DNA of 47,477 nt from Desulfocapsa sp. (GTDB lineage Bacteria; Desulfobacterota; Desulfobulbia; Desulfobulbales; Desulfocapsaceae). The stretch spans positions 1-47,477 of the forward strand of contig JAFLJS010000029.1 in the NCBI GenBank assembly GCA_022712895.1. Direction: 5' to 3'. A program made the translations under genes and the position numbers. Each line of letters begins with the position of its first letter. Within the stretch, counting starts at the first letter, position 1. This document shows positions 17,726 through 34,945 of the stretch, piece by piece. The notes below the pieces were generated by a model. The model had not been told where the DNA came from, made no database searches, and saw only the letters and a list, made by a program, of their open reading frames with translations.

Positions 17726-19474
17726 ATGCTTCAAAAGAAATTTGTTCAACTTCAAGACTGTTTAAAAACATATACCATCGATCAGGACAAAGCCATCAGT
17801 CCTGAAGAAACTGTTGCCAGATTTAAGCAGAAACTGGAAGATCTCAACCTGGATATTTTAAAAGAAGTCAAGCGGATAGATAATGGAAGACTCGGTATTC
17901 CAGTTTATTTTTCTGTCTGTGGTGAAGATGCCCGAGCAATGACGGGGACAAAAAAACAGATGGGAAAGGGGGCCTCGCCTATCCAGGCTAAAGCTTCAGC
18001 CTGCATGGAACTGGCGGAACGGTTTTCCTTTTTCACTTTTAAAAATAATCCAGATAACTTTCTGTATGGTGACTATCAAACAATGCAAGAGCAGGGACAT
18101 CCCGTTCTTCCACTGCATTACCTGTTGCAATCAGTCCATGATAGTGAGCATGATGAAAAATTCATTGAAGAAGTCCTGCATGGAATACCAATGCAGTGGG
18201 CCTGGGCCAAAAATCTGACCCAGGATACAGAGGTACTTATTCCTTTCTCATGGTTTTTCGCGATCAATGAATTCAATGGTCCTTCAGCAGGAAATTCATT
18301 CGAGGAAGCTGCATTACAGGGCATTTGTGAGATAGTGGAACGCCACGTATGTGCGCTGGTGAATCACAAAAAACTGAAAACACCCCTTATTGACCATGAA
18401 AGTATTAAAGACCCGGTCGCCCGAGAAGTTGTCGCTATATTTAAGAAGAATGATATAGAACTCTATCTAAATGATTTTACACTGGATACGGGAATATGTA
18501 CCATTGCGGCCCTCGCCATAGATAGAAATACCTTTCCTGAGACAAGTGAAATTGTGTATACGGCAGGTACCACTCCCGACCCGGAAAAAGCACTTATTCG
18601 TGCAGTGACAGAAGTTGCACAACTTGCAGGTGATTTCAATTCAGGGTCAAACTACGTAGCTTCAGGGTTGCCAAAACCTTTAAACATGGATGAGGTTGCC
18701 CATGTACATGCAAGTGGTGAGAGTTGTGCCATGGATGATATTGCGAATCTTGGAGATATAAATATCCGTGTGGAAGTGGAAAACTGTCTTGAATCACTTC
18801 AAAATATTGGCATGGATACCTTTATGCTTGATGTCAGCCATCCGGATTTGAAGATCCCTGCAATTTATACAATCGTGCCTGGGGCACATTTTCGTGAGCG
18901 TTCCATGATTAACGATGTGGGACTCTTTGCTGCCAAATTACTTGTTGAGATGGTTGATGATCCACAGCAACTTGAAGAAAAACTTGCTCGACTTGAAACA
19001 ATCATTCCAGATGCGTATTACCTGCATTTTTACAGAGGACGTAATCTGTACGAAGCTGGAGAGGCTACGCAGGCACTTCAACATTTTGAACAGGCATTAC
19101 GTGGGAACCCGGAAGCAGAGGATCTTCCTTATATATACTCCTATATGGGAAATGCCTATAAAGACCTTGAGCAGTACGATCTGGCATTGGATATCTTGCG
19201 TAAGGGGTTGGATGAGGACGAAGAACGCTCAGATATTCATAATATGATTGGTGTCTGCCATTTTAAACAGGGTAACTTTGCTGATGCTGTGAAAAGCTTT
19301 GAACGTGCAGTTGAGCTCAATCCTGTGTCTGCCATGGATTATGCAAATCTTGGTGTAAATCATCGAAAACTCGGGAACATTGATCAGGCCATTCATTTCT
19401 TTACTCTTGCTTTGTCGCTGGATGCTGATATCGAGTTTGCCAGAATACAACTTGCTGAATTGATGGCAGGATAA
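17726..19474 (+). CDS. YcaO-domain protein with C-terminal TPR repeats
   Basis: YcaO enzymes use ATP to activate amide backbones, in RiPP azoline/thioamide formation or as helpers of other modifications. In this 582-residue protein the YcaO domain spans about 55-405. ATP/Mg-binding motifs are visible: ACMELAERFSFF, the LQGICEIVERH motif and RAVTEVAQL. The C-terminal 150 residues hold about four TPRs (FYRGRNLYEAGEATQALQHF, YIYSYMGNAYKDLEQYD, MIGVCHFKQGNFADAVKSFE, NLGVNHRKLGNIDQAIHFF). The E. coli YcaO linked to RimO-dependent S12 modification also has a helical C-terminus, so a ribosomal role is possible. No TfuA, radical SAM partner or precursor peptide was seen beside it. The next gene, waaF, starts 13 bp later. 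Confidence 0.85.
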   Translation: MLQKKFVQLQDCLKTYTIDQDKAISPEETVARFKQKLEDLNLDILKEVKRIDNGRLGIPVYFSVCGEDARAMTGTKKQMGKGASPIQAKASACMELAERFSFFTFKNNPDNFLYGDYQTMQEQGHPVLPLHYLLQSVHDSEHDEKFIEEVLHGIPMQWAWAKNLTQDTEVLIPFSWFFAINEFNGPSAGNSFEEAALQGICEIVERHVCALVNHKKLKTPLIDHESIKDPVAREVVAIFKKNDIELYLNDFTLDTGICTIAALAIDRNTFPETSEIVYTAGTTPDPEKALIRAVTEVAQLAGDFNSGSNYVASGLPKPLNMDEVAHVHASGESCAMDDIANLGDINIRVEVENCLESLQNIGMDTFMLDVSHPDLKIPAIYTIVPGAHFRERSMINDVGLFAAKLLVEMVDDPQQLEEKLARLETIIPDAYYLHFYRGRNLYEAGEATQALQHFEQALRGNPEAEDLPYIYSYMGNAYKDLEQYDLALDILRKGLDEDEERSDIHNMIGVCHFKQGNFADAVKSFERAVELNPVSAMDYANLGVNHRKLGNIDQAIHFFTLALSLDADIEFARIQLAELMAG

Positions 19475-21249: not shown

Positions 21250-22092
21250 ATGATGCTAAAATCTACGAGCATTGATTTTAGCGACTCTTTTCCTGAAGTT
21301 CAGGAGCTCAGCCATTCCAAAACCAATACTGCTAAAACGTTTACTCCTCGATTTGAGGATAAAAACTGGACTTCTATTCTCTATATAGAACGTGGTAATT
21401 TTCAGATTCGTTATGAAACCGGGGAACTGCTTAGGGCGCAAGGAGGTACATTTTATTTTCACCCTCCCTTGTCATTGAAATACCAAACAGAAGATAAAAC
21501 AATTACCCCTTATTCCATGTACCATCTTGCTGTAGATCTATCCCTTGGTAATCGATCCCTATTTTCGTCGCATACTGCTGATGAGCAAATAATTCGGCAA
21601 ATCCCTGAAAAGCCATTTGTCAGAAATGCTGCTCCCTTAATGGTAGACTCATTTAAAACTATTTTGGTGGAATATAAGGAGCAGAAAGCTGGTTATCTTG
21701 TTCAGATAGAAAACTCAATTCGACAAATTGTAATCTCTGCCATACGGAGTGGAAATATCCGAGAAGGCGTTTCTGTCACTCACTGTAAACATATAGAAGT
21801 AGTTGATACTTTTCTTGGGGAAAATATCGATTTTATGGGGCCCGTTGAGCAACTTTTCGATTTAATGGGAGTGAGTAGAAGTCATGGATACGATCTTTTC
21901 CACAAAACATTTGGTATAAATCCAAAAGATTATATTATTCGAAAAAAAATTGTTTTAGCAAAACAGATGCTGCTCGAAGGAAAAGCTGTTACCACCATTG
22001 CCTTCGAACTAGGTTTCTCCTCCAGTCAGAATTTTGCGACTATATTCAAAAAAATCACCTGTATTACTCCAAGCCAGTTCAGAAAAAAATAA
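21250..22092 (+). CDS. AraC-family transcriptional regulator
   Basis: A 280-residue regulator with a cupin-like N-terminal sensing half (YIERGNFQIRYETGELL, GGTFYFHPPLSL) and a C-terminal AraC DNA-binding domain (about 180-280). Two helix-turn-helix units are visible: LFDLMGVSRSHGYDLFHKTF and VTTIAFELGFSSSQNFATIF, ending ITPSQFRKK. ATG at 21250 or 21253 could be used. It is the gene before the ATP-grasp and KamA-like genes, across a 273-bp gap, and is therefore their likely regulator. The ligand is unknown. Confidence 0.88.
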   Translation: MMLKSTSIDFSDSFPEVQELSHSKTNTAKTFTPRFEDKNWTSILYIERGNFQIRYETGELLRAQGGTFYFHPPLSLKYQTEDKTITPYSMYHLAVDLSLGNRSLFSSHTADEQIIRQIPEKPFVRNAAPLMVDSFKTILVEYKEQKAGYLVQIENSIRQIVISAIRSGNIREGVSVTHCKHIEVVDTFLGENIDFMGPVEQLFDLMGVSRSHGYDLFHKTFGINPKDYIIRKKIVLAKQMLLEGKAVTTIAFELGFSSSQNFATIFKKITCITPSQFRKK

Positions 22093-22322: not shown

Positions 22323-22365
22323 ATTGAAAACTGTTATGGAATTTTTTTATAGGAAGTGGGGTACA

Positions 22366-23784
22366 ATGGAAATTGCTACAGATCAGGAAATCTTATTCTC
22401 CAACTTCAAATATGATGCTGATATTTATTATTTCTTTTATTTGGGTGACGTCAAAGCATATTATCTGAATAGCTTTATTCAAGATGTTTTACAATCAAAA
22501 ACAGGGCAAAGAAAAGTTCAAATAATTGCTGTGATCCCCGATGTTTTAAATCAATACGATTATCAAAATATCATTGTAATCAATCCTGTTATACAAGAGT
22601 ATAGTAATTCCTCAACAGCACAAACAGATAGGGAACATTCCAACATCAGTTGCAGAATCAAATCTTCTGTCTTTATGAAAGCAGTTTCCAGCAATCCTCA
22701 GATCCGAAAGCTCATACAGTTGATTCTGACAAAACAAAGTAATCTGTTTATTTATCTCTTTGAATCCGTAGCGGAAATGACCCTTGATGAGATAAGTGGT
22801 GTTACTGTCCTTGGGCCTGATAAAGTTCTCTGCAGAGAAATAAATAATAAAATCGTTCAGTACAAGCAGGTGAGCGGACAGATTCCGACAGCTGAACACT
22901 GCTTTTGTGATGACACTGCTTCACTCATTACCAGTACTAGTCAAAAACGTAAGACATGGGACGATGGTATCTTTATAAGTTGCGCCTACTCGGCTGCGGG
23001 TGCAAATTCTATTGTCACAAACTATCAGCATGAGGTGGAAGAATGGTGCAGTAACAAAGAAGGTCCATTTCTTTTGTCTCGTTTCATTCCGCATACCCTC
23101 GATCCAACAGTACTTGCCGTTGTTGCAAATGAAAATGATGTCTATATAGCAGGTGTTGCTGATCAGGTTATCGAAAATGGAAACAGGTTTATAGGCTCAA
23201 CGTATCCCTCTGTTGCATCCCTAAAACAAAAAGAATTATTGCATCAATATACTGTTACCGTCGGCCAGATGCTCGGTCGTCAAGGATATCGTGGTATATT
23301 CGGTTGTGATTATATAATCGCTGATGATGGTACCATCTACTTTATAGAGATAAATGCTCGTAAACAAGGCACTACTCTTGAGTTTTGTTATACTTTGGCA
23401 CAGGCGTTACCCGATGGTTCACCAATGCTACCTGAGCTTGAATACTATGCCGTAACAGAAAACCGTTTTCCTGATAACAGTGTCGAGTTAAATTTAACTT
23501 ATGATCAGATAAATTGGGGGACCTATAACTTTAAAATTTTTGAAGAGAAGTTAACCACGGGCTATGTACCACATAATTCTTATGAGAGAGTGTCATTTGA
23601 GAAAATAGCACAGGGGTGTCTGAACAATGATTTCGTAGTTCTTGAACATGTAGGGCTCGGGGTTACAGTATTGCCAGGAACGTTTCTGGCACGAGTTGTG
23701 TCAGTTGCTGACAGTATAGCTGATATGGAAATAGGGCTGCGGCAAGGTGTCGATTTTATAAAACAAACAATTAATGAGGCTTAG
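22366..23784 (+). CDS. ATP-grasp domain protein, predicted amino-acid/peptide-type ligase
   Basis: About 472 residues. ATP-grasp enzymes couple ATP cleavage to joining a carboxylate to an amine or thiol through an acyl-phosphate. The core is at about 165-370; the metal-binding strand is visible as GCDYIIADDGTIYFIEINARKQ (the E-x-N motif), and FLLSRFIPHTLDPTVL precedes it. The N-terminal 150 residues are unlike families I know, and a C-terminal region (about 390-472) follows. I chose ATG at 22366 because AGGAAG lies 9 bp upstream; a TTG at 22324 would add 14 residues. The KamA-like gene follows after 52 bp, so the two probably act together. Substrate unknown. Confidence 0.75.
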   Translation: MEIATDQEILFSNFKYDADIYYFFYLGDVKAYYLNSFIQDVLQSKTGQRKVQIIAVIPDVLNQYDYQNIIVINPVIQEYSNSSTAQTDREHSNISCRIKSSVFMKAVSSNPQIRKLIQLILTKQSNLFIYLFESVAEMTLDEISGVTVLGPDKVLCREINNKIVQYKQVSGQIPTAEHCFCDDTASLITSTSQKRKTWDDGIFISCAYSAAGANSIVTNYQHEVEEWCSNKEGPFLLSRFIPHTLDPTVLAVVANENDVYIAGVADQVIENGNRFIGSTYPSVASLKQKELLHQYTVTVGQMLGRQGYRGIFGCDYIIADDGTIYFIEINARKQGTTLEFCYTLAQALPDGSPMLPELEYYAVTENRFPDNSVELNLTYDQINWGTYNFKIFEEKLTTGYVPHNSYERVSFEKIAQGCLNNDFVVLEHVGLGVTVLPGTFLARVVSVADSIADMEIGLRQGVDFIKQTINEA

Positions 23785-23836: not shown

Positions 23837-25432
23837 ATGGATAATTGCTCCAATAATTCTACCATTCAAGCTGGTTCATTTGATAGTTACACTCAGGAAC
23901 TAATCGATGAACTTTGCTCAACGTTGCAAGATAGTCGTGAACCAAACCATGATGAGCGCAAGGAAATAGCCGATCTTTTTGAAACGGCAGCAAAAAAGGA
24001 TCTTACAGCTCCTATTATTTTGCTCTTTGAAAAGTTACTGGATTTTCATCGCAATCGAAAAATTGATATAGAAGGGCTCGGCTTTGACTGCAGTGAACTT
24101 ACGGGATTAGCACTTAAACACCAAGAAATAGATGAGCATATGGTTTCTGTCGGTGGTCGGCTTACCCGGGCTTTACCAATTGCTGCTGATGCGAATGACC
24201 GGGTTACTGAGTATTTACAATCCAAGACCGAAGAGGCACCCAGTGGTATCGAGCTCTGGCCACAGATTCAAGAAAATATTGAAAGAATTAAACACGAATT
24301 GAATATGAGTGATGAGGAGTGGGACAAACCGTCAGGACAGCTCAGAAATGTTATTGATTCTGTTGATACCCTTGCTCGGTTGATAGATCTCCCTCCCAAA
24401 GCTGCTGAAGCAATAGGCAAGATTACTAAAGCTTACCGAATGCGCTTAACTCCTTATTATACTAGTCTAATTATGCCAGGCATGGTGAACGATCCCATCA
24501 TGTTGCAATCAATTCCAACCGGTGAAATGATAAATAATGCAGGTATTGAGATACCTCCTGTTGCGGCAGACCATTCCCCTGCACGACTGGTGGACCAATT
24601 TTATCCAAGGGTCGTAACTATCAAATCAACGAATATGTGTGCAATGTATTGCACACACTGCCTCAGGCTTGCACATATCGGCAGAAAAGACAATGTGTAC
24701 TCAAAAGAGGCATATGGTGAGGCCTTGGATTATATTCGTAATAATGACCGCATTAGAGACGTACTTATCACTGGTGGAGATGCCTTTGTTCTTCCTAATT
24801 CTATTATTAAATATATTTTATCAGAGCTGGATTCCATTGACCATGTCAAAATGAAACGAATTGGAACGAGAATTCCAGTGACCATGCCCATGCGTGTTGA
24901 TGATGAATTGCTCGATATCCTGGAAGCGAGTAATGATAAAAAACCCCTTAGGGTTGTTACACAGATCAATACAGCTCGGGAAATAACTCCCGTTTCACGA
25001 GACACTTTCAAGAAAATTTCCAAACGGGTTTATGCGGTATTAAATCAGGCTGTTTTGTTAAAAGGAATTAATGATTCACGAGTTAAGATGTGGAAATTAT
25101 GTGAAACCATACAGGAATCTTACGTGCGACCTTATTATATATTTAACTGTAGTTATAGGAATCCGCAGTTTAAACACTTTCGGGTTCCACTGGAAGTCGG
25201 CAGGGATATTGTTGAATCAATGTACGGCAATATTTCTGGTGATGCCATTCCCAGGTATATTTCAACTGCAGGCGGAAAAATCCCCATGCATCGAGATAAT
25301 GTTATAAGCAGTGATAGTGATGGAAATTATACCCTTAGAAAACCATGGAATGGCGAAGAAGTACAGTATCCTGATGCAGATATGGAACTGTATAACAGTG
25401 CCGGTTTCGCTTTTGCTGAATATCAGGAGTAA
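23837..25432 (+). CDS. KamA-family radical SAM / PLP aminomutase with altered substrate pocket
   Basis: 531 residues; the C-terminal 330 match lysine 2,3-aminomutase (KamA/AblA). The radical SAM cluster motif is C268-x3-C272-x2-C275 (CAMYCTHC). R277 matches the carboxylate-binding Arg134 of the clostridial enzyme, and K481 in AGGKIPM matches the PLP lysine. The positions of Asp293 and Asp330, which hold the lysine side-chain amine, are here S439 (NCSYRN) and S476 (YISTAGGK); their 37-residue spacing is kept, while the Gly loop is two residues shorter. In glutamate 2,3-aminomutase these positions are Lys and Asn, so this enzyme probably acts on another amino acid. A 200-residue helical N-terminal extension is unassigned. 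It follows the ATP-grasp gene by 52 bp. Confidence 0.82.
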   Translation: MDNCSNNSTIQAGSFDSYTQELIDELCSTLQDSREPNHDERKEIADLFETAAKKDLTAPIILLFEKLLDFHRNRKIDIEGLGFDCSELTGLALKHQEIDEHMVSVGGRLTRALPIAADANDRVTEYLQSKTEEAPSGIELWPQIQENIERIKHELNMSDEEWDKPSGQLRNVIDSVDTLARLIDLPPKAAEAIGKITKAYRMRLTPYYTSLIMPGMVNDPIMLQSIPTGEMINNAGIEIPPVAADHSPARLVDQFYPRVVTIKSTNMCAMYCTHCLRLAHIGRKDNVYSKEAYGEALDYIRNNDRIRDVLITGGDAFVLPNSIIKYILSELDSIDHVKMKRIGTRIPVTMPMRVDDELLDILEASNDKKPLRVVTQINTAREITPVSRDTFKKISKRVYAVLNQAVLLKGINDSRVKMWKLCETIQESYVRPYYIFNCSYRNPQFKHFRVPLEVGRDIVESMYGNISGDAIPRYISTAGGKIPMHRDNVISSDSDGNYTLRKPWNGEEVQYPDADMELYNSAGFAFAEYQE

Positions 25433-25478
25433 TGAGAGAGGAGTAGTTGTATCCTTTTTAGTGTAGCAGGACAGGAGT

Positions 25479-25520
25479 AACTGTTCAGCAGATTGTGCTT
25501 ATTGCAACTGTTGAACAGTT
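25479..25520. repeat. Inverted repeat between convergent genes
   Basis: AACTGTTCA (25479-25487) and TGAACAGTT (25512-25520) form a perfect 9-bp stem with a 24-base loop. It lies between the ends of the KamA-like gene and the convergent TAXI gene and may help end both transcripts, although no T-run follows closely. Confidence 0.4.
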
Positions 25521-25543
25521 ATATTTAGCCTGAGAGTACTGTT

Positions 25544-26533
25544 TTAATTCTCTGCAAAGAATTGTTCAGCACCTTGTTGAAGTTGAAGTCCTTTAATTCC
25601 TTTGCGGGATTCCTGTACAGGAAAAAGGGACAAAGCAGGGTGGCTTTTCTGTAAGCGTTTTTTGTTTTTATACAGAGCTTTTGTTATTGCATACCCGGTT
25701 TTTTGATCGATTGCACTGGACGCAACGAGTATTGCTCTTGTTCCAAAGGTCCTGACAGGTAAGGAATCGGAAGCAACCTTAATCTCCGTTTGCCAGCAAG
25801 ATTCACGCGAATCAACAAGTTTATCAATGGCATCGTCAGTAATGTCCAACACCGTTCCTTTACAATTTTCTATCAAACGCCGTGTTGTCTTTGACGGGTG
25901 TACACCAACTATAATCATAGCCTGTACGGTTCCCTGGCAGAAGGCCATGGTGTCTTGAGCATGAGAGGTGGGCAACTCTTCAAAGCGTTTAAAATCGCTT
26001 ACAGACCATCCTTTTGCTTTCAGTATTAAATCCATGGCTTGACGTTCAATGGACCCTGGTGCACCAGCGTTTATTCGTTTGCCTTTCAGATCATTCAATG
26101 ATGATATTCCCGCATTTGATCGGACTATAATACCTATGGGACGGGCATAGAGCGGGGTGAGAATGGAAAGGTTGCTATAGTTAATGTCGAGGAATTGAAA
26201 CTGTCCTGATTTTTTTACTGCCCCTTCAAGAACGTTTGAATTGATAATGGAAAGATCAAGCGAGCCTGATTGCAGGTTGGTCAAATTATCAATTTCACCT
26301 TCAGTCACCTGTATACGGCAGTTGAAATCGGGAATTTCTTTGTTGATAACTCTGCATACCATTCTGCCGGAAAAATAGGAAAAACTTCCGACTTCTCCAG
26401 TTCCCAAAAGGAGGTCATAAGCATTGCCATAGGAAGGCGTCAGAAACAGAACAACAGCCAGGAGCCAATTACAGCGTTTACGAAAAGCAGCTGGAGCACA
26501 GAACGTAAATGCGTATATCTTTAGTAAAGTCAT
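25544..26533 (-). CDS. TAXI-family TRAP substrate-binding protein (second, divergent copy)
   Basis: A periplasmic binding protein of the TAXI class. I chose ATG at 26533 because a near-perfect GGAGGT lies 4 bp upstream; a longer frame from 26587 would overlap the uspA gene. The 329-residue product has a signal peptide (FLTPSYGNAYD), then LLLGTGEVGSFSYFSGRMVCRVI, which resembles the TAXI motif [14 protein letters not shown] but is altered. GKRINAGAPGSIERQAMDLIL and the AMIIVGVHPS region are typical. It closes the TRAP gene group on the minus strand. Its divergence from the first binding protein suggests a different ligand or a sensory role. Confidence 0.83.
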   Translation of the reverse strand: MTLLKIYAFTFCAPAAFRKRCNWLLAVVLFLTPSYGNAYDLLLGTGEVGSFSYFSGRMVCRVINKEIPDFNCRIQVTEGEIDNLTNLQSGSLDLSIINSNVLEGAVKKSGQFQFLDINYSNLSILTPLYARPIGIIVRSNAGISSLNDLKGKRINAGAPGSIERQAMDLILKAKGWSVSDFKRFEELPTSHAQDTMAFCQGTVQAMIIVGVHPSKTTRRLIENCKGTVLDITDDAIDKLVDSRESCWQTEIKVASDSLPVRTFGTRAILVASSAIDQKTGYAITKALYKNKKRLQKSHPALSLFPVQESRKGIKGLQLQQGAEQFFAEN

Positions 26534-26579
26534 TATCACCTCCGGTTGATTCGATTTTTTACTATAAATATAAGACTTC

Positions 26580-27023
26580 TTACACAACGTTACCCCGTAG
26601 ATTTCTTAAACGTAAAACAGAACAGGGGGCATCGCGATAGACATGTTTGGCACAGGTATGACTGAACACCTCATTAATCTCACGGGTTCTATTGTGGTAG
26701 ACGACAATGAGGTCAGCTTCCCATTTTTTTGCAAGTTTTACGATTTCATCGTAGTGTTTTCCTGAGCGAATATGGAATCTGACAGAGTTTTCACAATTCT
26801 TCTCCACAAAGGATGTTAATTCATCTCTAAAATGTTCGAGAGCTTCTTTACGAACACGATCCGAAATAAAAGATCCAACAATCGGCATACCAAATCCCGG
26901 CATAACACTGACCAGGCGAATTTCTGCATCAAAAGGTTTAGCTATTGCAACGGCACCATCGTAAACAGCTTTGGCAGCAATAGGACGATCGACATCGATG
27001 GGAACTAAAATTTTCTTAAACAT
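26580..27023 (-). CDS. UspA-family universal stress protein associated with a TRAP transporter
   Basis: A 147-residue UspA-type nucleotide-binding-fold protein (MFKKILVPIDVDRP ... ADLIVVYHN ... DAPCSVLRLRN). The family's ATP-binding G-x2-G-x9-G(S/T) motif is not evident: the equivalent region reads YHNRTREINEVFSHTC, so it may not bind ATP. In Halomonas the UspA protein TeaD is encoded with and regulates the TeaABC TRAP transporter. A similar modulating role here is inferred from its place between the fused permease and the second binding protein. Confidence 0.85.
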   Translation of the reverse strand: MFKKILVPIDVDRPIAAKAVYDGAVAIAKPFDAEIRLVSVMPGFGMPIVGSFISDRVRKEALEHFRDELTSFVEKNCENSVRFHIRSGKHYDEIVKLAKKWEADLIVVYHNRTREINEVFSHTCAKHVYRDAPCSVLRLRNLRGNVV

Positions 27024-27149: not shown

Positions 27150-29738
27150 CTAATTTAAAGCAGGAGATATTTCCTGTTCATCCCTCCGTCGTCTTTGTAA
27201 TAAATAGACAAGAGCAAACAACGCTAAGGTAGGTATATAAACAAGTTGTTTGGGGAGCCTGTCTGTTGGCATTTGGATGTTCAGGATTTCCTGATCGAAG
27301 TCTAACCCTGCCTTTTCTGCAGCACTAGCAAAGACCACGTTGTCTATTAGTATTTTTCCTTCTTCATTGCGGGTTTCAATACCAATCGCATCCAATCGGG
27401 CTCTACCGCCTTCCTCACTACCAACAGGCAGCATCACGGTTTTGGTATACCCTTCACCGTTCATCTTTTCTCCTTTGATCATTACCCTCATCAAGGAACC
27501 AGGTTTGATCTCAGTCAGCAGAGTTTCTAGTTGAGCAGGGGGCTCAGACGTGAGAGGGGGGAAAAATTTATCCCAGATATATCCTGGCCTGAAGAGTAAA
27601 AAGGTTACCAGCAGGAGGGCCACTGTTTCCCAGATACGAGATTTTACCAGGAAAAATCCCTGGGTAGCGGCAGCAAAGGCCATCATGGCGGCAATAGCTG
27701 TAGAAACAACCATAACTAAAACAAAGACGCTATCCACACCAATCATTAATAACTGGGTGTTGAAAATAAACATGAAGGGAAGGATGGCTGTTCTGATATC
27801 GTAGGTAAATCCTTGTATACCCGTTTTGATGGGATCACCTCCTGAGATCCCGGCTGCAGCAAAAGCAGCTAGACCGACAGGTGGGGTATCATCTGCCAGA
27901 ATTCCAAAGTAGAACACAAAGAGGTGAACGGCAATCAGGGGTACGATAAGACCATTTTGAGCCCCTAAATCCACGATAACTGGTGCCATCAGGGTGGAGA
28001 CAACGATATAGTTTGCAGTGGTTGGGAGTCCCATGCCAAGAATTAAACTGATAAGAGCAGTAAAGCCAAGAATCAGCATCAGGTTACCCCCTGAAATATA
28101 TTCTACAAATTCTGTCATTACCAGCCCAACACCGGTGAGGGTAATGGTGCCAACAACAATACCAGCTGCCGCAGTAGCAACGCCGATACCAATCATATTT
28201 CTGGCACCGGAAACTAAACCATTGATAAAATCATCCCACCCATTTTTAAAACTGAAATTGTCTTCCTGACTTTTTCTGAAATACCCTTTCAAAGGTCTCT
28301 GGGTTAATACGATAACCATCATTAACACTGTTGCCCAGAAGGCAGAAAGGGCAGGAGACAGCCGCTCAACGACCAGACACCACATCAGGACAACAATAGG
28401 CAAAAGAAAATACAAACCCGCCTGGGCTGTTTTCCAAAGATCGGGAAGTTCTGTTATGTCATGGGTCTGTTCAAGCTCAGGTACTCTGGTTGCAAATTTA
28501 AGGAGTATCAAATAAGTACCAGCAAGAAGTGTTGAAACTATATAGATGGTGGAATCACCTGCGACAGTCTTAATCCAGCCAACGCCATAGTAAGTGGCCG
28601 CAGCCATAACAATCATAAAGAGAAAGGTGAACACAAAGGAAAGTAATTTCTGTGCGAGAGTCTGCTTGACTTTTTTCTCCATCCCTTCAAGTCCCATTTT
28701 ACAGGCTTCAAGGTGAACAATATAGACAAGGGCAATATAAGAAATGATGGCAGGTAAAAAAGCACATCTAATAACTTCTAGGTAAGTAATACCAACATAC
28801 TCAACCATAAGAAAAGCTGCTGCTCCCATAACCGGAGGCATCAGTTGTCCGTTGGTTGAACAGGCCACTTCAATGGCCCCTGCCTTTTCGGCTGAAAACC
28901 CAACTTTTTTCATTAGAGGGATGGTAAATGTTCCAGTGGTAACAACATTTGCAATGGATGAACCGGATACAAGGCCAGTAAGTCCCGATGATACAACAGC
29001 TGCCTTGGCGGGCCCACCTTTAAGATGGCCCAAACCGGCAAAGGCAGTACGAATAAAATAGTTTCCAGCACCTGCTGATTCCAGCAATGCGCCAAAGAGA
29101 ACAAACATAAAAACCATTCCGGTTGAAACACCAAGGGCTACACCAAAGACACCCTCAGTTCCAAGCCAGTAGTGGGACATGCCTTTATTAAGACTTGCCC
29201 CTTTATGCGCAATAACATCCGGCATTAACTGTCCACCAAAGGTGTAGATACAGAATATGGCTGCCACAATCATCAGTGGTGGTCCTAAGGCACGCCTGGT
29301 TGCTTCAAGAAGTAGAATCATTCCGATTACTGAAACGATGATGTCCATCTGGGTCGGGTCACCGGGGCGTTCAGCAAGACCGGCATAAAAGAAATATAAG
29401 TATGATGCGCAAAAGGCAGCAATCATACCAAGAACCCAATCCTGAATGGGTATATAGTCTCTGGGGGATGATTTAAAAGAAGGGTAAGCTGTATACGAAA
29501 GAAAAACGGCAAAAGCTAAATGAATGGCCCTGGCTTCAGTGTCATTGATAACAAAGAAGTTAAATATAAATGGAAGAGGAGATGCATAATAGAGTTGAAA
29601 AATAGTCCAGATCAGGGGAACTAAGAAGAGAACTTTTTTAGGAAAACCCCCGGTGGGGTTTCGAGCTCCAGAATCTGTTTCAGCGATCATCTCCTGAAGT
29701 TCTTCATCGGTTTTGATGTTTTTCTCTACTTCACTCAT
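27150..29738 (-). CDS. TAXI-type TRAP transporter fused permease (DctQ-DctM fusion)
   Basis: An 862-residue membrane protein combining the small (DctQ, 4 TM) and large (DctM, about 12 TM) TRAP subunits, as is usual for TAXI systems. DctM-type motifs include TGLVSGSSIANVVTTGTFTI, MGLPTTANYIV and the ADDTPPVGLAAFAAAGISGGDP stretch. After the membrane part, about 130 C-terminal residues form a soluble region of the kind annotated as DUF3394 in fused permeases (IKPGSLMRVMIKGEKMNGEG ... AAEKAGLDFDQEI), then one more hydrophobic segment. It uses an ion gradient to import a small carboxylate-type solute; the ligand cannot be told from sequence. It follows the first TAXI binding protein after an attenuating hairpin. 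Confidence 0.93.
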   Translation of the reverse strand: MSEVEKNIKTDEELQEMIAETDSGARNPTGGFPKKVLFLVPLIWTIFQLYYASPLPFIFNFFVINDTEARAIHLAFAVFLSYTAYPSFKSSPRDYIPIQDWVLGMIAAFCASYLYFFYAGLAERPGDPTQMDIIVSVIGMILLLEATRRALGPPLMIVAAIFCIYTFGGQLMPDVIAHKGASLNKGMSHYWLGTEGVFGVALGVSTGMVFMFVLFGALLESAGAGNYFIRTAFAGLGHLKGGPAKAAVVSSGLTGLVSGSSIANVVTTGTFTIPLMKKVGFSAEKAGAIEVACSTNGQLMPPVMGAAAFLMVEYVGITYLEVIRCAFLPAIISYIALVYIVHLEACKMGLEGMEKKVKQTLAQKLLSFVFTFLFMIVMAAATYYGVGWIKTVAGDSTIYIVSTLLAGTYLILLKFATRVPELEQTHDITELPDLWKTAQAGLYFLLPIVVLMWCLVVERLSPALSAFWATVLMMVIVLTQRPLKGYFRKSQEDNFSFKNGWDDFINGLVSGARNMIGIGVATAAAGIVVGTITLTGVGLVMTEFVEYISGGNLMLILGFTALISLILGMGLPTTANYIVVSTLMAPVIVDLGAQNGLIVPLIAVHLFVFYFGILADDTPPVGLAAFAAAGISGGDPIKTGIQGFTYDIRTAILPFMFIFNTQLLMIGVDSVFVLVMVVSTAIAAMMAFAAATQGFFLVKSRIWETVALLLVTFLLFRPGYIWDKFFPPLTSEPPAQLETLLTEIKPGSLMRVMIKGEKMNGEGYTKTVMLPVGSEEGGRARLDAIGIETRNEEGKILIDNVVFASAAEKAGLDFDQEILNIQMPTDRLPKQLVYIPTLALFALVYLLQRRRRDEQEISPALN

Positions 29739-29874: not shown

Positions 29875-30849
29875 TTACATAAGTCCAGCTTCTTTATAAT
29901 ACTTAACAGCTCCATCATGTAAAGGAGCAGAGAGACCGTCTTTGATCATTTGTTCTTTCTTCAGGTTTTTGAATGCTGGATGCAGTTTCTGGAACTGGTC
30001 AAAGTTCTCAAATACTGATTTAACAACGTTATAGATAACGTCTTCAGGAACATCAGTGGAAGATACAAAGGTAGCACCTACACCAAAGGTTGGTGTGTCA
30101 GCGTCGGTTCCACGATACATTCCGCCAGGAATAACAGCAGTTCTATAGTAGTCGTTATCTGCAACAAGTTTATCAACTGCAGAACCCGTCACACTAACCA
30201 TAACTGTGTCACAAGTAGTGGTGGCTTCTTTGATAGATCCACTGGGATGACCAACGGTGAAAACCATGGCATCAATTTTGTGGTCACAAAGTGCTTTGGA
30301 TTGTTCGGAAGATTTACGCTCAGAAGCAAGTTTGAAATCTTTTTTGGTCCAGCCGACAGCTTCCATAAGAACTTCCATGGTACCACGCTGCCCGGAACCG
30401 GGATTACCAATATTTACACGCTTTCCTTTCATATCCATAAAGTCTTTGATACCGGAATCGGTACGGGCAACAACGGTGAAAGGTTCAGGATGAATAGAGA
30501 AAACTGCACGCAATTTTTTGTTTGGTCCTTTTTTTGCAAATTTAGAGGTACCATTATATGCGTGGTACTGCCAATCGGACTGGGCAACACCCATGTCAAG
30601 CTCGCCGGCAGCAATAGTATTAAGGTTGTATACAGAACCACCAGTACTTTCTACTGAACAGCGAATACCATGTATTTTTCTTGTTTTATTCACAAGACGA
30701 CAGATAGCGCCACCAGTTGGATAATAAACGCCGGTAACACCACCTGTTCCAATGGTAACAAACTTTTGGTCAGCAGCAAATGTGGGCGCAGCACTGAACG
30801 CAAGAGCTAAAACAGCGGTAGCTGCAAGTCCTGTAACTAATTTTTTCAT
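29875..30849 (-). CDS. TAXI-family TRAP substrate-binding protein
   Basis: A 324-residue periplasmic receptor with a clear signal peptide ([10 protein letters not shown] ... APTFAAD). It has the TAXI signature [20 protein letters not shown] near the mature N-terminus, and then [20 protein letters not shown] and [17 protein letters not shown], all typical of the class. It heads the minus-strand TRAP operon, so the promoter should lie in the 145-bp gap 30850-30994; I saw no clear -35/-10 pair. The solute is not predictable; known TAXI systems are poorly characterised, with glutamate or other carboxylates suggested. Confidence 0.94.
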
Positions 30850-33357: not shown

Positions 33358-34179
33358 ATGTTATTTTTCTCAGAAGCCGCCATCGTGGAGAAGATCAGAA
33401 ATCGTGAAATTTTTACTGCAACCATTGAGGATGGAGCATTTACACTCAAAATAAATAAATACATACCGGCACTGAGTGCAGCCATGCATAATGGCGGACG
33501 ACTTACTAAAGAGCTTGCTGATAATTGTCTGCTTTCACAGAAAGAACGCTATCACGAGGAAGATCCTTTTACCGGGAGCTTTATCGAAAATCAGGAAATC
33601 ACTATCATTGCCCATGATTCCCGTTATGAATACGATCTGAACAGGACTCATGAGGAGTGTGTCTACGAAACAGCGTGGGGAAAAGAGATATGGAAAACCG
33701 CGTTAAAAAGTAAGCGTATTCATGAAAGCCAGGCAAAGCATGCACGATTTCACCGCGTTATAACGGCCGTTATAGAGGCTTTGAGAGAGGATTTCGGCCA
33801 GTGCATTGTCTATGATATACACTCTTACAATTACCAGCGATATGAACGTACTGACTTGCCTGTTTTTAACCTTGGCACTTCCACTGTGACAAATAAAAAC
33901 TGGCGACCAGTGATTGCGTCATGGCTTGTAGCGCTCCAGGAGATAAAGGTTGATGGCATAGAGACAACAGTTGCTGAAAATGATATTTTTTATGGCAAAG
34001 GCTTCCTGGCCACCTACTGTCACAAACGTTATGATAATGTCCTCGTTTTGGCAACAGAAGTGAAAAAAGTTTTTATGAACGAAATGACAGGAGAGTCGGA
34101 TGTTGAAATACTAGGATCTTTACAACGTGTTTTTAATGCAACTGTCTCTGGAAACAGTGAATGCCACCTGTCTGTCTGA
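33358..34179 (+). CDS. N-formylglutamate amidohydrolase-family protein
   Basis: A 273-residue member of the family that includes HutG-type N-formylglutamate amidohydrolases, metal-dependent and related to zinc carboxypeptidases. Recognisable motifs are MHNGGRL, EEDPFTGSF, EYDLNRTHEECVYE and CIVYDIHSYNYQR. There are no histidine-degradation genes nearby, and similar proteins often occur beside ATP-grasp genes with unknown function. Its substrate therefore remains uncertain. It follows the Cys-rich gene by 44 bp and is the last ordinary gene before the accessory scar. Confidence 0.82.
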   Translation: MLFFSEAAIVEKIRNREIFTATIEDGAFTLKINKYIPALSAAMHNGGRLTKELADNCLLSQKERYHEEDPFTGSFIENQEITIIAHDSRYEYDLNRTHEECVYETAWGKEIWKTALKSKRIHESQAKHARFHRVITAVIEALREDFGQCIVYDIHSYNYQRYERTDLPVFNLGTSTVTNKNWRPVIASWLVALQEIKVDGIETTVAENDIFYGKGFLATYCHKRYDNVLVLATEVKKVFMNEMTGESDVEILGSLQRVFNATVSGNSECHLSV

Positions 34180-34343: not shown

Positions 34344-34765
34344 TGGAGTTTGCATTCCAAAAGTAGTATTAAAGGAGAATGCAAATGAAAGGGAAAAGAA
34401 GAGCACATTCGGATAACGGATTGGTTGAAGGATAAGGGACATCAGGCCATAACACCAGGGCCTCACACGAGCAAACCTGCACCGGGGCATAAAACTTATC
34501 CATACCTGCTGCGAAATATGAGTATCGAGCAAGTTGGACAGGTTTGGAGCATGGATATCACGTATATCCCAATGCGATACGGCTTCATGTACCTTGCGGC
34601 AGTAATTGATTGGTATAGCCGCTACGTTCTTGCCTGGGAGCTTTCGAATACTATGGAAAGCCTTTTCTGCGTGGCCGCATTACAGCATGCACTGACGAAG
34701 GGTAATCCGACTATATTCTATACCCATCAGGGGGCACAATTTACTTCTGAGGCATTTACAGGTGT
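34344..34765 (+). mobile_element. IS3-family insertion sequence remnant, internally deleted (orfA stub plus orfB core)
   Basis: The left part (TGGAGTTTGCATTCC...) ends in AAAGGAG and ATG at 34385, followed by a short orfA-like start (MKGKRRAHS). The sequence then jumps, out of frame, to orfB-type pieces: RITDWLKDKGHQ, TSKPAPGHKTYPYLLRN, the first catalytic Asp region VWSMDITYIPM, DWYSRYVLAWELS and THQGAQFTSEAFTGV. In the last, the second catalytic Asp is replaced by His. Most of orfA, the middle of orfB and the C-terminus with the catalytic Glu are missing. The copy is inactive. The open frame 34425-34829 covers this core and runs into foreign sequence. Confidence 0.85.
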
Positions 34766-34945
34766 GTTCATAAGAACATTGATTTCTATTCACTTACATC
34801 TTCACAGAAGGGCTGTGGCAATCAGATAGTAAAGTCCATTGTTGATGCTACTCCTGAAGATTGGACTATCGTGGTAACAATGGATTGGAGTGGTGTTTTC
34901 TGGCAAAGAATGATTGAAGAATATCCACACATTGTTGTTTTGTAG
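34766..34945 (+). pseudogene. 3' fragment of an unidentified gene at the IS remnant edge
   Basis: Just beyond the point where transposase homology stops, another frame reads HKNIDFYSLTSSQKGCGNQI, then DATPEDWTIVVTMDWSGVFW and EEYPHIVVL, and stops at 34943-34945. It has no start codon of its own and looks like the C-terminal 50-odd residues of a cytosolic protein cut by the insertion or a deletion. I do not recognise it. Confidence 0.45.

Follow-up and report, generated by a model that had tools for sequence, protein, structure and literature searches.

A distinct specificity clade of KamA-type radical SAM aminomutases with a near-constant ATP-grasp partner

The window, i.e., the whole stretch of 47,477 nucleotides from Desulfocapsa sp. 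analysed here, carries an ATP-grasp gene followed on the same strand by a radical SAM aminomutase gene (the mutase), with a cluster of TAXI and TRAP genes on the other strand:

21250..22092, plus strand: AraC-type regulator, upstream of the ATP-grasp/mutase pair
22324..23784, plus strand: ATP-grasp protein (PF02655, 37.4 bits, cut-off 23.2), 52 bp upstream of the mutase
23837..25432, plus strand: KamA-type radical SAM aminomutase of a distinct clade (from ORF, profiles, alignment, model and tree)
25478..25521, no strand: inverted repeat with 14-nt arms between convergent genes, a possible terminator, absent from the terminator scan
25544..26587, minus strand: second, divergent TAXI protein, with the VcGluP contacts Tyr45, Ser75, Gln93 and Glu125 replaced by Ser, Glu, Asn and Arg
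26580..27023, minus strand: universal stress protein of the TRAP cluster
27150..29738, minus strand: fused TRAP permease with a C-terminal DUF3394
29875..30849, minus strand: TAXI solute-binding protein, 66% identical to VcGluP (8S4J)

The alignment of homologues suggests that the ATP-grasp protein starts near 22366, and both promoter and terminator scans gave results at chance level. Elsewhere in the window, the plus strand encodes a protein with a YcaO domain followed by TPR repeats (17726-19474), a member of the N-formylglutamate amidohydrolase family some 8 kb away from the mutase (33358-34179) and a short integrase-core (rve) protein, perhaps the remnant of an insertion element (34425-34829).

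The mutase has 531 amino acids, and its assignment to the KamA-like radical SAM aminomutases, proposed in an earlier note made from the DNA letters, is confirmed by both profile and fold. It scores 234 bits with the profile of KamA family radical SAM proteins (TIGR00238, cut-off 199.2), while its scores with the profiles of glutamate 2,3-aminomutase (TIGR04368, 334.8 bits, cut-off 650), lysine 2,3-aminomutase (TIGR03820, 283.1 bits, cut-off 525.4) and arginine 2,3-aminomutase (TIGR04468, 236.1 bits, cut-off 600) all stay below the respective cut-offs. The lysine 2,3-aminomutase 2a5h (LAM) is its sole strong sequence relative in the PDB and also the top Foldseek match (E 5.8e-28) of its AlphaFold2 model, which was built from 87 aligned sequences and reached a mean pLDDT of 92.3. 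A viral structure search returned only general radical SAM matches with low TM-scores. By default, such genes would probably receive the name KamA family or lysine 2,3-aminomutase. Within the mutase gene, the following features, all on the plus strand, could be located:

23837..24235: N-terminal region (residues 1-133), mostly helices in the model
24119..24160: invariant motif H95-x3-D99-E100-H101-x5-G107-R108 in the N-terminal region
24638..24661: CxxxCxxC motif (C268, C272, C275), in 81 of the 81 clade sequences covering it
24665..24667: R277, in the column of LAM Arg134, in 81 of the 81 clade sequences covering it
25151..25153: S439, aligned with LAM Asp293 and the Lys of glutamate-type enzymes, Ser in 79/79
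25157..25159: R441, Arg in 79/79; its loop exceeds that of LAM and glutamate-type enzymes by one residue
25253..25255: R473, Arg in 79/79
25262..25264: S476, the second serine of the earlier note, Ala in 71/79
25265..25267: T477, aligned with LAM Asp330 and the Asn of glutamate-type enzymes, Thr in 74/78
25277..25279: K481, in the column of the PLP lysine, Lys in 77/78

We take LAM Arg134 to be the arginine that holds the substrate carboxylate and LAM Lys337 to be the PLP lysine; the earlier note gave these roles to R277 and K481, and its statements that the cysteine motif, R277 and K481 are kept are confirmed. Four arginines common to lysine- and glutamate-type enzymes (LAM 112, 116, 130 and 136) have been lost from 76 of 76 clade sequences, which means that the cofactor site may also be different. 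The clade has gained other invariant charged residues, and some of the changed charged residues may touch PLP. Such losses would be expected if the protein were no longer an aminomutase and the changed arginines altered PLP binding to allow a different radical reaction, but the retention of the PLP lysine and of the carboxylate arginine makes this very improbable.

The substrate pocket was compared in an alignment of 82 distinct clade sequences with 13 glutamate-type and 7 lysine-type sequences. The glutamate-type set comprises 12 sequences above the TIGR04368 cut-off and one, L128, below it at 578 bits. The lysine-type set comprises 2a5h, five sequences labelled by their lower glutamate-profile scores (500-511 bits) and L031, whose label comes from its score against the window protein, so that six of these seven labels are based on scores only. 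The contrast between Asp/Asp in lysine-type and Lys/Asn in glutamate-type enzymes is drawn in the Structure-Function Linkage Database paper (PMC3965090). Our alignment recovers it: the column of LAM Asp293 holds Asp in 7/7 lysine-type and Lys in 13/13 glutamate-type sequences, the column of LAM Asp330 holds Asp in 7/7 and Asn in 12/13, and the clade has Ser and Thr, respectively. The window protein thus carries neither the Asp/Asp nor the Lys/Asn pair and stays below every NCBIfam equivalog cut-off, in agreement with the earlier note, which had seen neither signature and had correctly placed S439 in the Asp293 column. Its second serine, S476, is off by one, as T477 occupies the Asp330 column; being Ala in most clade sequences, S476 is not a conserved pocket residue and was rejected as such. 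The agreement in a spacing of 37 residues is a coincidence, since the clade has one extra loop residue after S439 and the true distance between S439 and T477 is 38. The Gly loop, described as two residues shorter, is three residues shorter than in LAM.

Two further positions set the clade apart. R441 lies in the extended loop, where the exact inserted column varies with the alignment. R473 replaces a Thr found in 7/7 lysine-type and 12/13 glutamate-type sequences; in the AlphaFold2 model it is on the strand 473-477, four residues ahead of T477, and the two residues are therefore probably on the same face. The full pattern S/R/R/T at 439/441/473/477 is present in 74 of the 82 clade sequences (of the other eight, three have no data, four differ at 477 alone and one has a gap there), and in none of the 13 glutamate-type, 7 lysine-type or 11 other KamA-family sequences, the last of which, including one annotated arginine enzyme, also lack Ser at 439. 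With Ser and Thr instead of charged residues at both classical positions, an aminomutase whose substrate is a neutral or polar amino acid, as the earlier note had tentatively supposed, might be expected. However, with two invariant arginines nearby and neighbours of glutamate type (see below), this is improbable; together with the position in the tree, these features favour an acidic or glutamyl substrate instead.

The N-terminal region is a second mark of the clade. It had been thought to add 200 residues, a length rejected by both alignments used here: the extension is about 145 residues relative to LAM (residue 156 aligns with LAM residue 11) and about 106 relative to the glutamate profile (residue 115 aligns with profile position 9). 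Residues 1-12 are modelled with a pLDDT under 50. H95, D99, E100, H101 and R108 are invariant in the 75 clade sequences longer than 480 aa, and the motif pattern is found in 75/76 clade, 0/13 glutamate-type and 0/6 lysine-type sequences. Searches with this region retrieved no Pfam family over the cut-off and no significant relative in the PDB.

In a tree of 59 rows, including 32 of the 82 clade sequences, the clade is a single, long-stemmed branch supported at 100/100. It adjoins L128 (85/83) and then the other glutamate-type sequences (88/87), although the tree program warned that the join of the clade and L128 is possibly a long-branch effect. L128 is an apparent intermediate with a Lys/Thr pocket; it is the same gene as L107, with an M20 gene adjoining. 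Among 144 related genomes, 39 match the mutase at the limit used, and 29 of them, including that of the window, hold a clade member with at least 68% identity; all 29 belong to the window's family, and the remaining matches have 34-38% identity. The window's genus has a clade member in 3 of the 20 genomes listed. A phylum-wide sample with at most three candidates scored per genome gave a clade member in 4 of 395 genomes, the window's included. A scan of named genomes retrieved at least 79 loci, and by our assignment those listed divide into 68 clade loci and 11 of glutamate type; a match over the TIGR04368 cut-off is present in 10 of the 11 glutamate-type genomes. Most hosts of the listed loci belong to the Desulfobacterota (Thermodesulfobacteriota), the others being Campylobacterota, Spirochaetes and a few further groups. 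The clade is seen mostly in sulfate-reducing bacteria. Many of the listed host records are marine, vent, seep or soda-lake samples by title; beside these titles, the saline origin of many hosts is partly our presumption.

A plasmid search returned 50 matching records, none covering over 80% of the query and none with a clade member. Outside the clade, L139:1538-4146 on a Rhizobium leguminosarum plasmid has a KamA protein with an Asp/Cys pocket and, directly upstream, an ATP-grasp-type gene annotated as biotin carboxylase subunit family, which the profile of the clade's ATP-grasp protein does not match; these genes may be a second, independent pair. Other KamA proteins occur beside clade members. 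Downstream of the mutase, L071:4176-6629 encodes a glutamine-synthetase-like ligase and another KamA protein, whose best score is with the arginine 2,3-aminomutase profile, though under the cut-off. In the soda-lake Desulfonatronovibrio/Desulfonatronospira loci L073, L077 and L080, a divergent KamA homologue of 372-430 aa is encoded upstream of the cassette, on the other strand and in head-to-head orientation; its first pocket position is Arg and its second is Met.

The genomic context was compared at 69 loci, i.e., the 68 clade loci listed and the window. Short contigs are frequent among them: 65 of the 69 extend 700 bp or more upstream of the mutase, and 61 do so downstream. An ATP-grasp gene is present at 57 of these loci and at 56 it is directly upstream (same strand, less than 600 bp), while the clade's ATP-grasp protein is found at none of the 11 glutamate-type loci among those listed. 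The search proposed in the earlier note, for homologues that combine this pocket with an adjacent ATP-grasp gene, yields 56 other listed loci in addition to the window. The two genes also occur together across the 144 related genomes: 27 have both, 114 neither, two the mutase alone and one the ATP-grasp alone, where the mutase-alone cases are both near contig starts and the ATP-grasp-alone case is a partial match. These results show that the clade is a specificity group of its own, accompanied almost constantly by the ATP-grasp gene. The 12 listed loci without the ATP-grasp gene include five with a protein of a gamma-glutamyltranspeptidase cluster (L057, L058, L062, L074 and L079), three that are cut short upstream (L052, L065 and L097) and four with neither an ATP-grasp nor a transpeptidase gene (L084, L094, L098 and L100).

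Regarding the activity of this partner, its best PDB match by profile is L-propargylglycine--L-glutamate ligase, a weak match of 38 bits over about 100 residues, and it scores 30.4 bits with the BesA-type profile NF042917 (cut-off 750). Among the 50 best fold matches of its model, carboxylases come first and the sole peptide ligase is at rank 50; since the carboxylases outrank the peptide ligase, fold rank was rejected as proof of function. Peptide ligation by the ATP-grasp partner is therefore likely rather than shown. The tight pairing of the two genes would fit a reading in which the ATP-grasp enzyme acts first and the mutase then moves the free amino group on the gamma-glutamyl residue of the resulting dipeptide. 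The extra arginines would hold the second carboxylate, and the small Ser/Thr replacing Lys/Asn, the two extra invariant arginines and the gamma-glutamyl enzyme at some loci are consistent with it. We know of no KamA enzyme acting on a dipeptide, however, and consider this order of events unlikely. A new class of aminomutases acting on a glutamyl dipeptide instead of a free amino acid, within a ligase-mutase-hydrolase cassette that makes and breaks a new beta-glutamyl compound in marine and soda-lake sulfate reducers, is a similarly speculative prospect.

Downstream of the mutase, an M20 hydrolase gene follows directly at 43 of the 69 listed loci; an M20 gene is present at 1 of the 11 listed glutamate-type loci. 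The closest solved structure to the one member examined (L059) is carboxypeptidase G2, and in NCBIfam this protein matches hydrolase and glutamate carboxypeptidase families, both below the cut-off. The window genome has no close copy of this cassette M20 (best match 36.8 bits). The gamma-glutamyltranspeptidase cluster, whose L057 member matches PF01019 with 329.7 bits, occurs at five of the 12 loci lacking the ATP-grasp gene and at none of the 57 having it. It adjoins the mutase or the M20 gene in L057, L058, L062 and L074 and is more than 5 kb off in L079; the window genome has a transpeptidase gene on another contig. L058, L062, L074 and L079 also have genes whose products look, from their sequences, like an ABC importer of dipeptide type; the same is true of L061, where the ATP-grasp gene is present. 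A GntR-type gene is upstream at 15 of the 69 listed loci.

The putative importers with a transpeptidase and without the ATP-grasp gene, the GntR-type genes and the M20 hydrolase could be read as a catabolic system, in which the cassette imports peptides of beta-amino acids, cleaves them by hydrolysis and converts the beta-amino acid back into its alpha form. An ATP-consuming ligase-type gene at 57 of the 69 listed loci weighs against this role, the window genome lacks a close cassette M20, and L061 has the importer together with the ATP-grasp gene; catabolism is thus a doubtful explanation and, in our estimate, probably not the right one.

Some loci hold further genes. Four Campylobacterota loci (L087, L088, L090 and L091) have a small downstream protein, YGSL, weakly resembling gamma-glutamylcyclotransferase: of the three examined against AIG2_2, two gave E-values of 0.035 and 0.065 and the third no match, all below the cut-off, and that of L088 has no PDB relative. 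L057, L058 and L079 each have a gene from a single cluster, represented in L057 by an MTTB-type methyltransferase, and in L057 a class III aminotransferase gene is upstream of the mutase on the opposite strand.

A TAXI protein or fused TRAP permease is encoded at 28 of the 69 listed loci and at 5 of the 11 listed glutamate-type loci. The window's TAXI protein 29875-30849 is related to VcGluP, a glutamate-specific TAXI protein according to PMC11574862. It keeps four of the six mutated glutamate-contact residues (Tyr45, Ser75, Gln93 and Glu125), while Tyr200 is replaced by Phe and Met201 by Thr. TAXI matches were found at 26 listed loci, window included, and in the 19 other proteins that are whole in the gene calls the same four residues are kept in 19/19, whereas Gln93 is present in one of the five TAXI proteins beside glutamate-type enzymes. 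This conservation is only moderate evidence because two of the contacts are common in the family, with Tyr45 in 78% and Gln93 in 54% of the TAXI set of PMC11574862. The ligand need not be identical either, since Met201 is Thr in 16 of the 19 clade-linked proteins.

The glutamate-type TAXI proteins and the glutamate-type nearest relatives would also suit a glutamate 2,3-aminomutase with a rebuilt pocket, making free beta-glutamate as an osmolyte, with the ATP-grasp enzyme amidating or otherwise modifying it. Beta-glutamate is indeed described as an osmolyte of methanogens and a few bacteria in PMC1224877. Nevertheless, the family-marking Lys/Asn pair (PMC3965090), present in 12 of the 13 glutamate-type sequences, is missing, and the equivalog score is 335 of 650 bits; we regard this alternative as a serious possibility, though not a probable one.

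Our preferred reading, held tentatively, is that the mutase works as a PLP-dependent radical SAM 2,3-aminomutase on an acidic, glutamate-type substrate (L-glutamate or a close derivative), coupled to peptide ligation. An acidic or glutamyl substrate is suggested because R441 and R473 are invariant (79/79) near the pocket, because the clade is nearest to the glutamate aminomutases in the tree, and because its neighbours are of glutamate type (the M20 hydrolase, the TAXI contacts and gamma-glutamyltranspeptidase). The coupling to ligation is suggested by the ATP-grasp gene upstream at 56 of the 69 listed loci and its co-occurrence with the mutase in 27 genomes. R441 and R473 would replace the single Lys of glutamate 2,3-aminomutase and hold the distal acidic group, while the alpha-amino group would be moved to carbon 3 via a PLP aldimine. 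The upstream ATP-grasp enzyme would then link the resulting beta-amino acid through an amide bond to a second amino acid, which may be glutamate. This would give a beta-peptide of glutamyl type that might serve as an osmolyte or a reserve compound; in other genomes the M20 hydrolase would break it down, and the TAXI-TRAP importer would supply glutamate. An osmolyte role is perhaps conceivable by analogy with beta-lysine and beta-glutamate (PMC9337991 and PMC1224877), and from the habitat of the hosts.

Several observations weigh against parts of this acidic-substrate reading. The clade lacks the Lys/Asn kept by glutamate-type enzymes; the match of the ATP-grasp protein to a glutamate ligase is weak, with carboxylases ahead in the fold list; L084, L094, L098 and L100 fit neither the ATP-grasp nor the transpeptidase pattern; TAXI/TRAP genes are present at 28 of the 69 listed loci, and the window genome is without a close M20; and the placement beside L128 (85/83) is possibly a long-branch join.

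In the searched literature, which includes few subscription papers, no work contains both "3-aminomutase" and "ATP-grasp", and the papers listed named nothing recognisable as this clade. As far as these searches reach, the specificity clade is new and its gene cassette undescribed. To our knowledge, few substrates of radical SAM 2,3-aminomutases are experimentally known. The sharply defined pocket and the partner gene at 57 of the 69 listed loci could bring the substrate within reach of a small assay panel combined with metabolite comparison. If true, the proposed activity would be a new specificity in a family used to make beta-amino acids and would point to an unrecognised glutamate-derived compound in anaerobes.

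Among known systems, the clade resembles glutamate 2,3-aminomutase (TIGR04368) in the cysteine, Arg and PLP Lys columns, in part of the N-terminal region (from residue 115) and in the TAXI-TRAP neighbours found at 5 of the 11 listed glutamate-type loci. In contrast to that enzyme, with which it shares 39-41% identity, it has Ser/Thr and two arginines in place of Lys/Asn, an extra N-terminal region and an ATP-grasp partner. It shares the fold and the catalytic columns with lysine 2,3-aminomutase (TIGR03820, 2a5h), but lacks Asp/Asp, has one loop longer by one residue and the Gly loop shorter by three, and carries about 145 additional N-terminal residues. The arginine 2,3-aminomutase (BlsG, TIGR04468; one annotated sequence) also has Thr at the second position and a shortened Gly loop, whereas it has Asp at the first position, no Arg at 441/473 and no N-terminal region. 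Finally, the partner is, like L-propargylglycine--L-glutamate ligase (BesA), an ATP-grasp protein and finds in it its best PDB and NCBIfam match, although the score is far below the BesA-type cut-off (30.4 against 750 bits) and only about 100 residues align.
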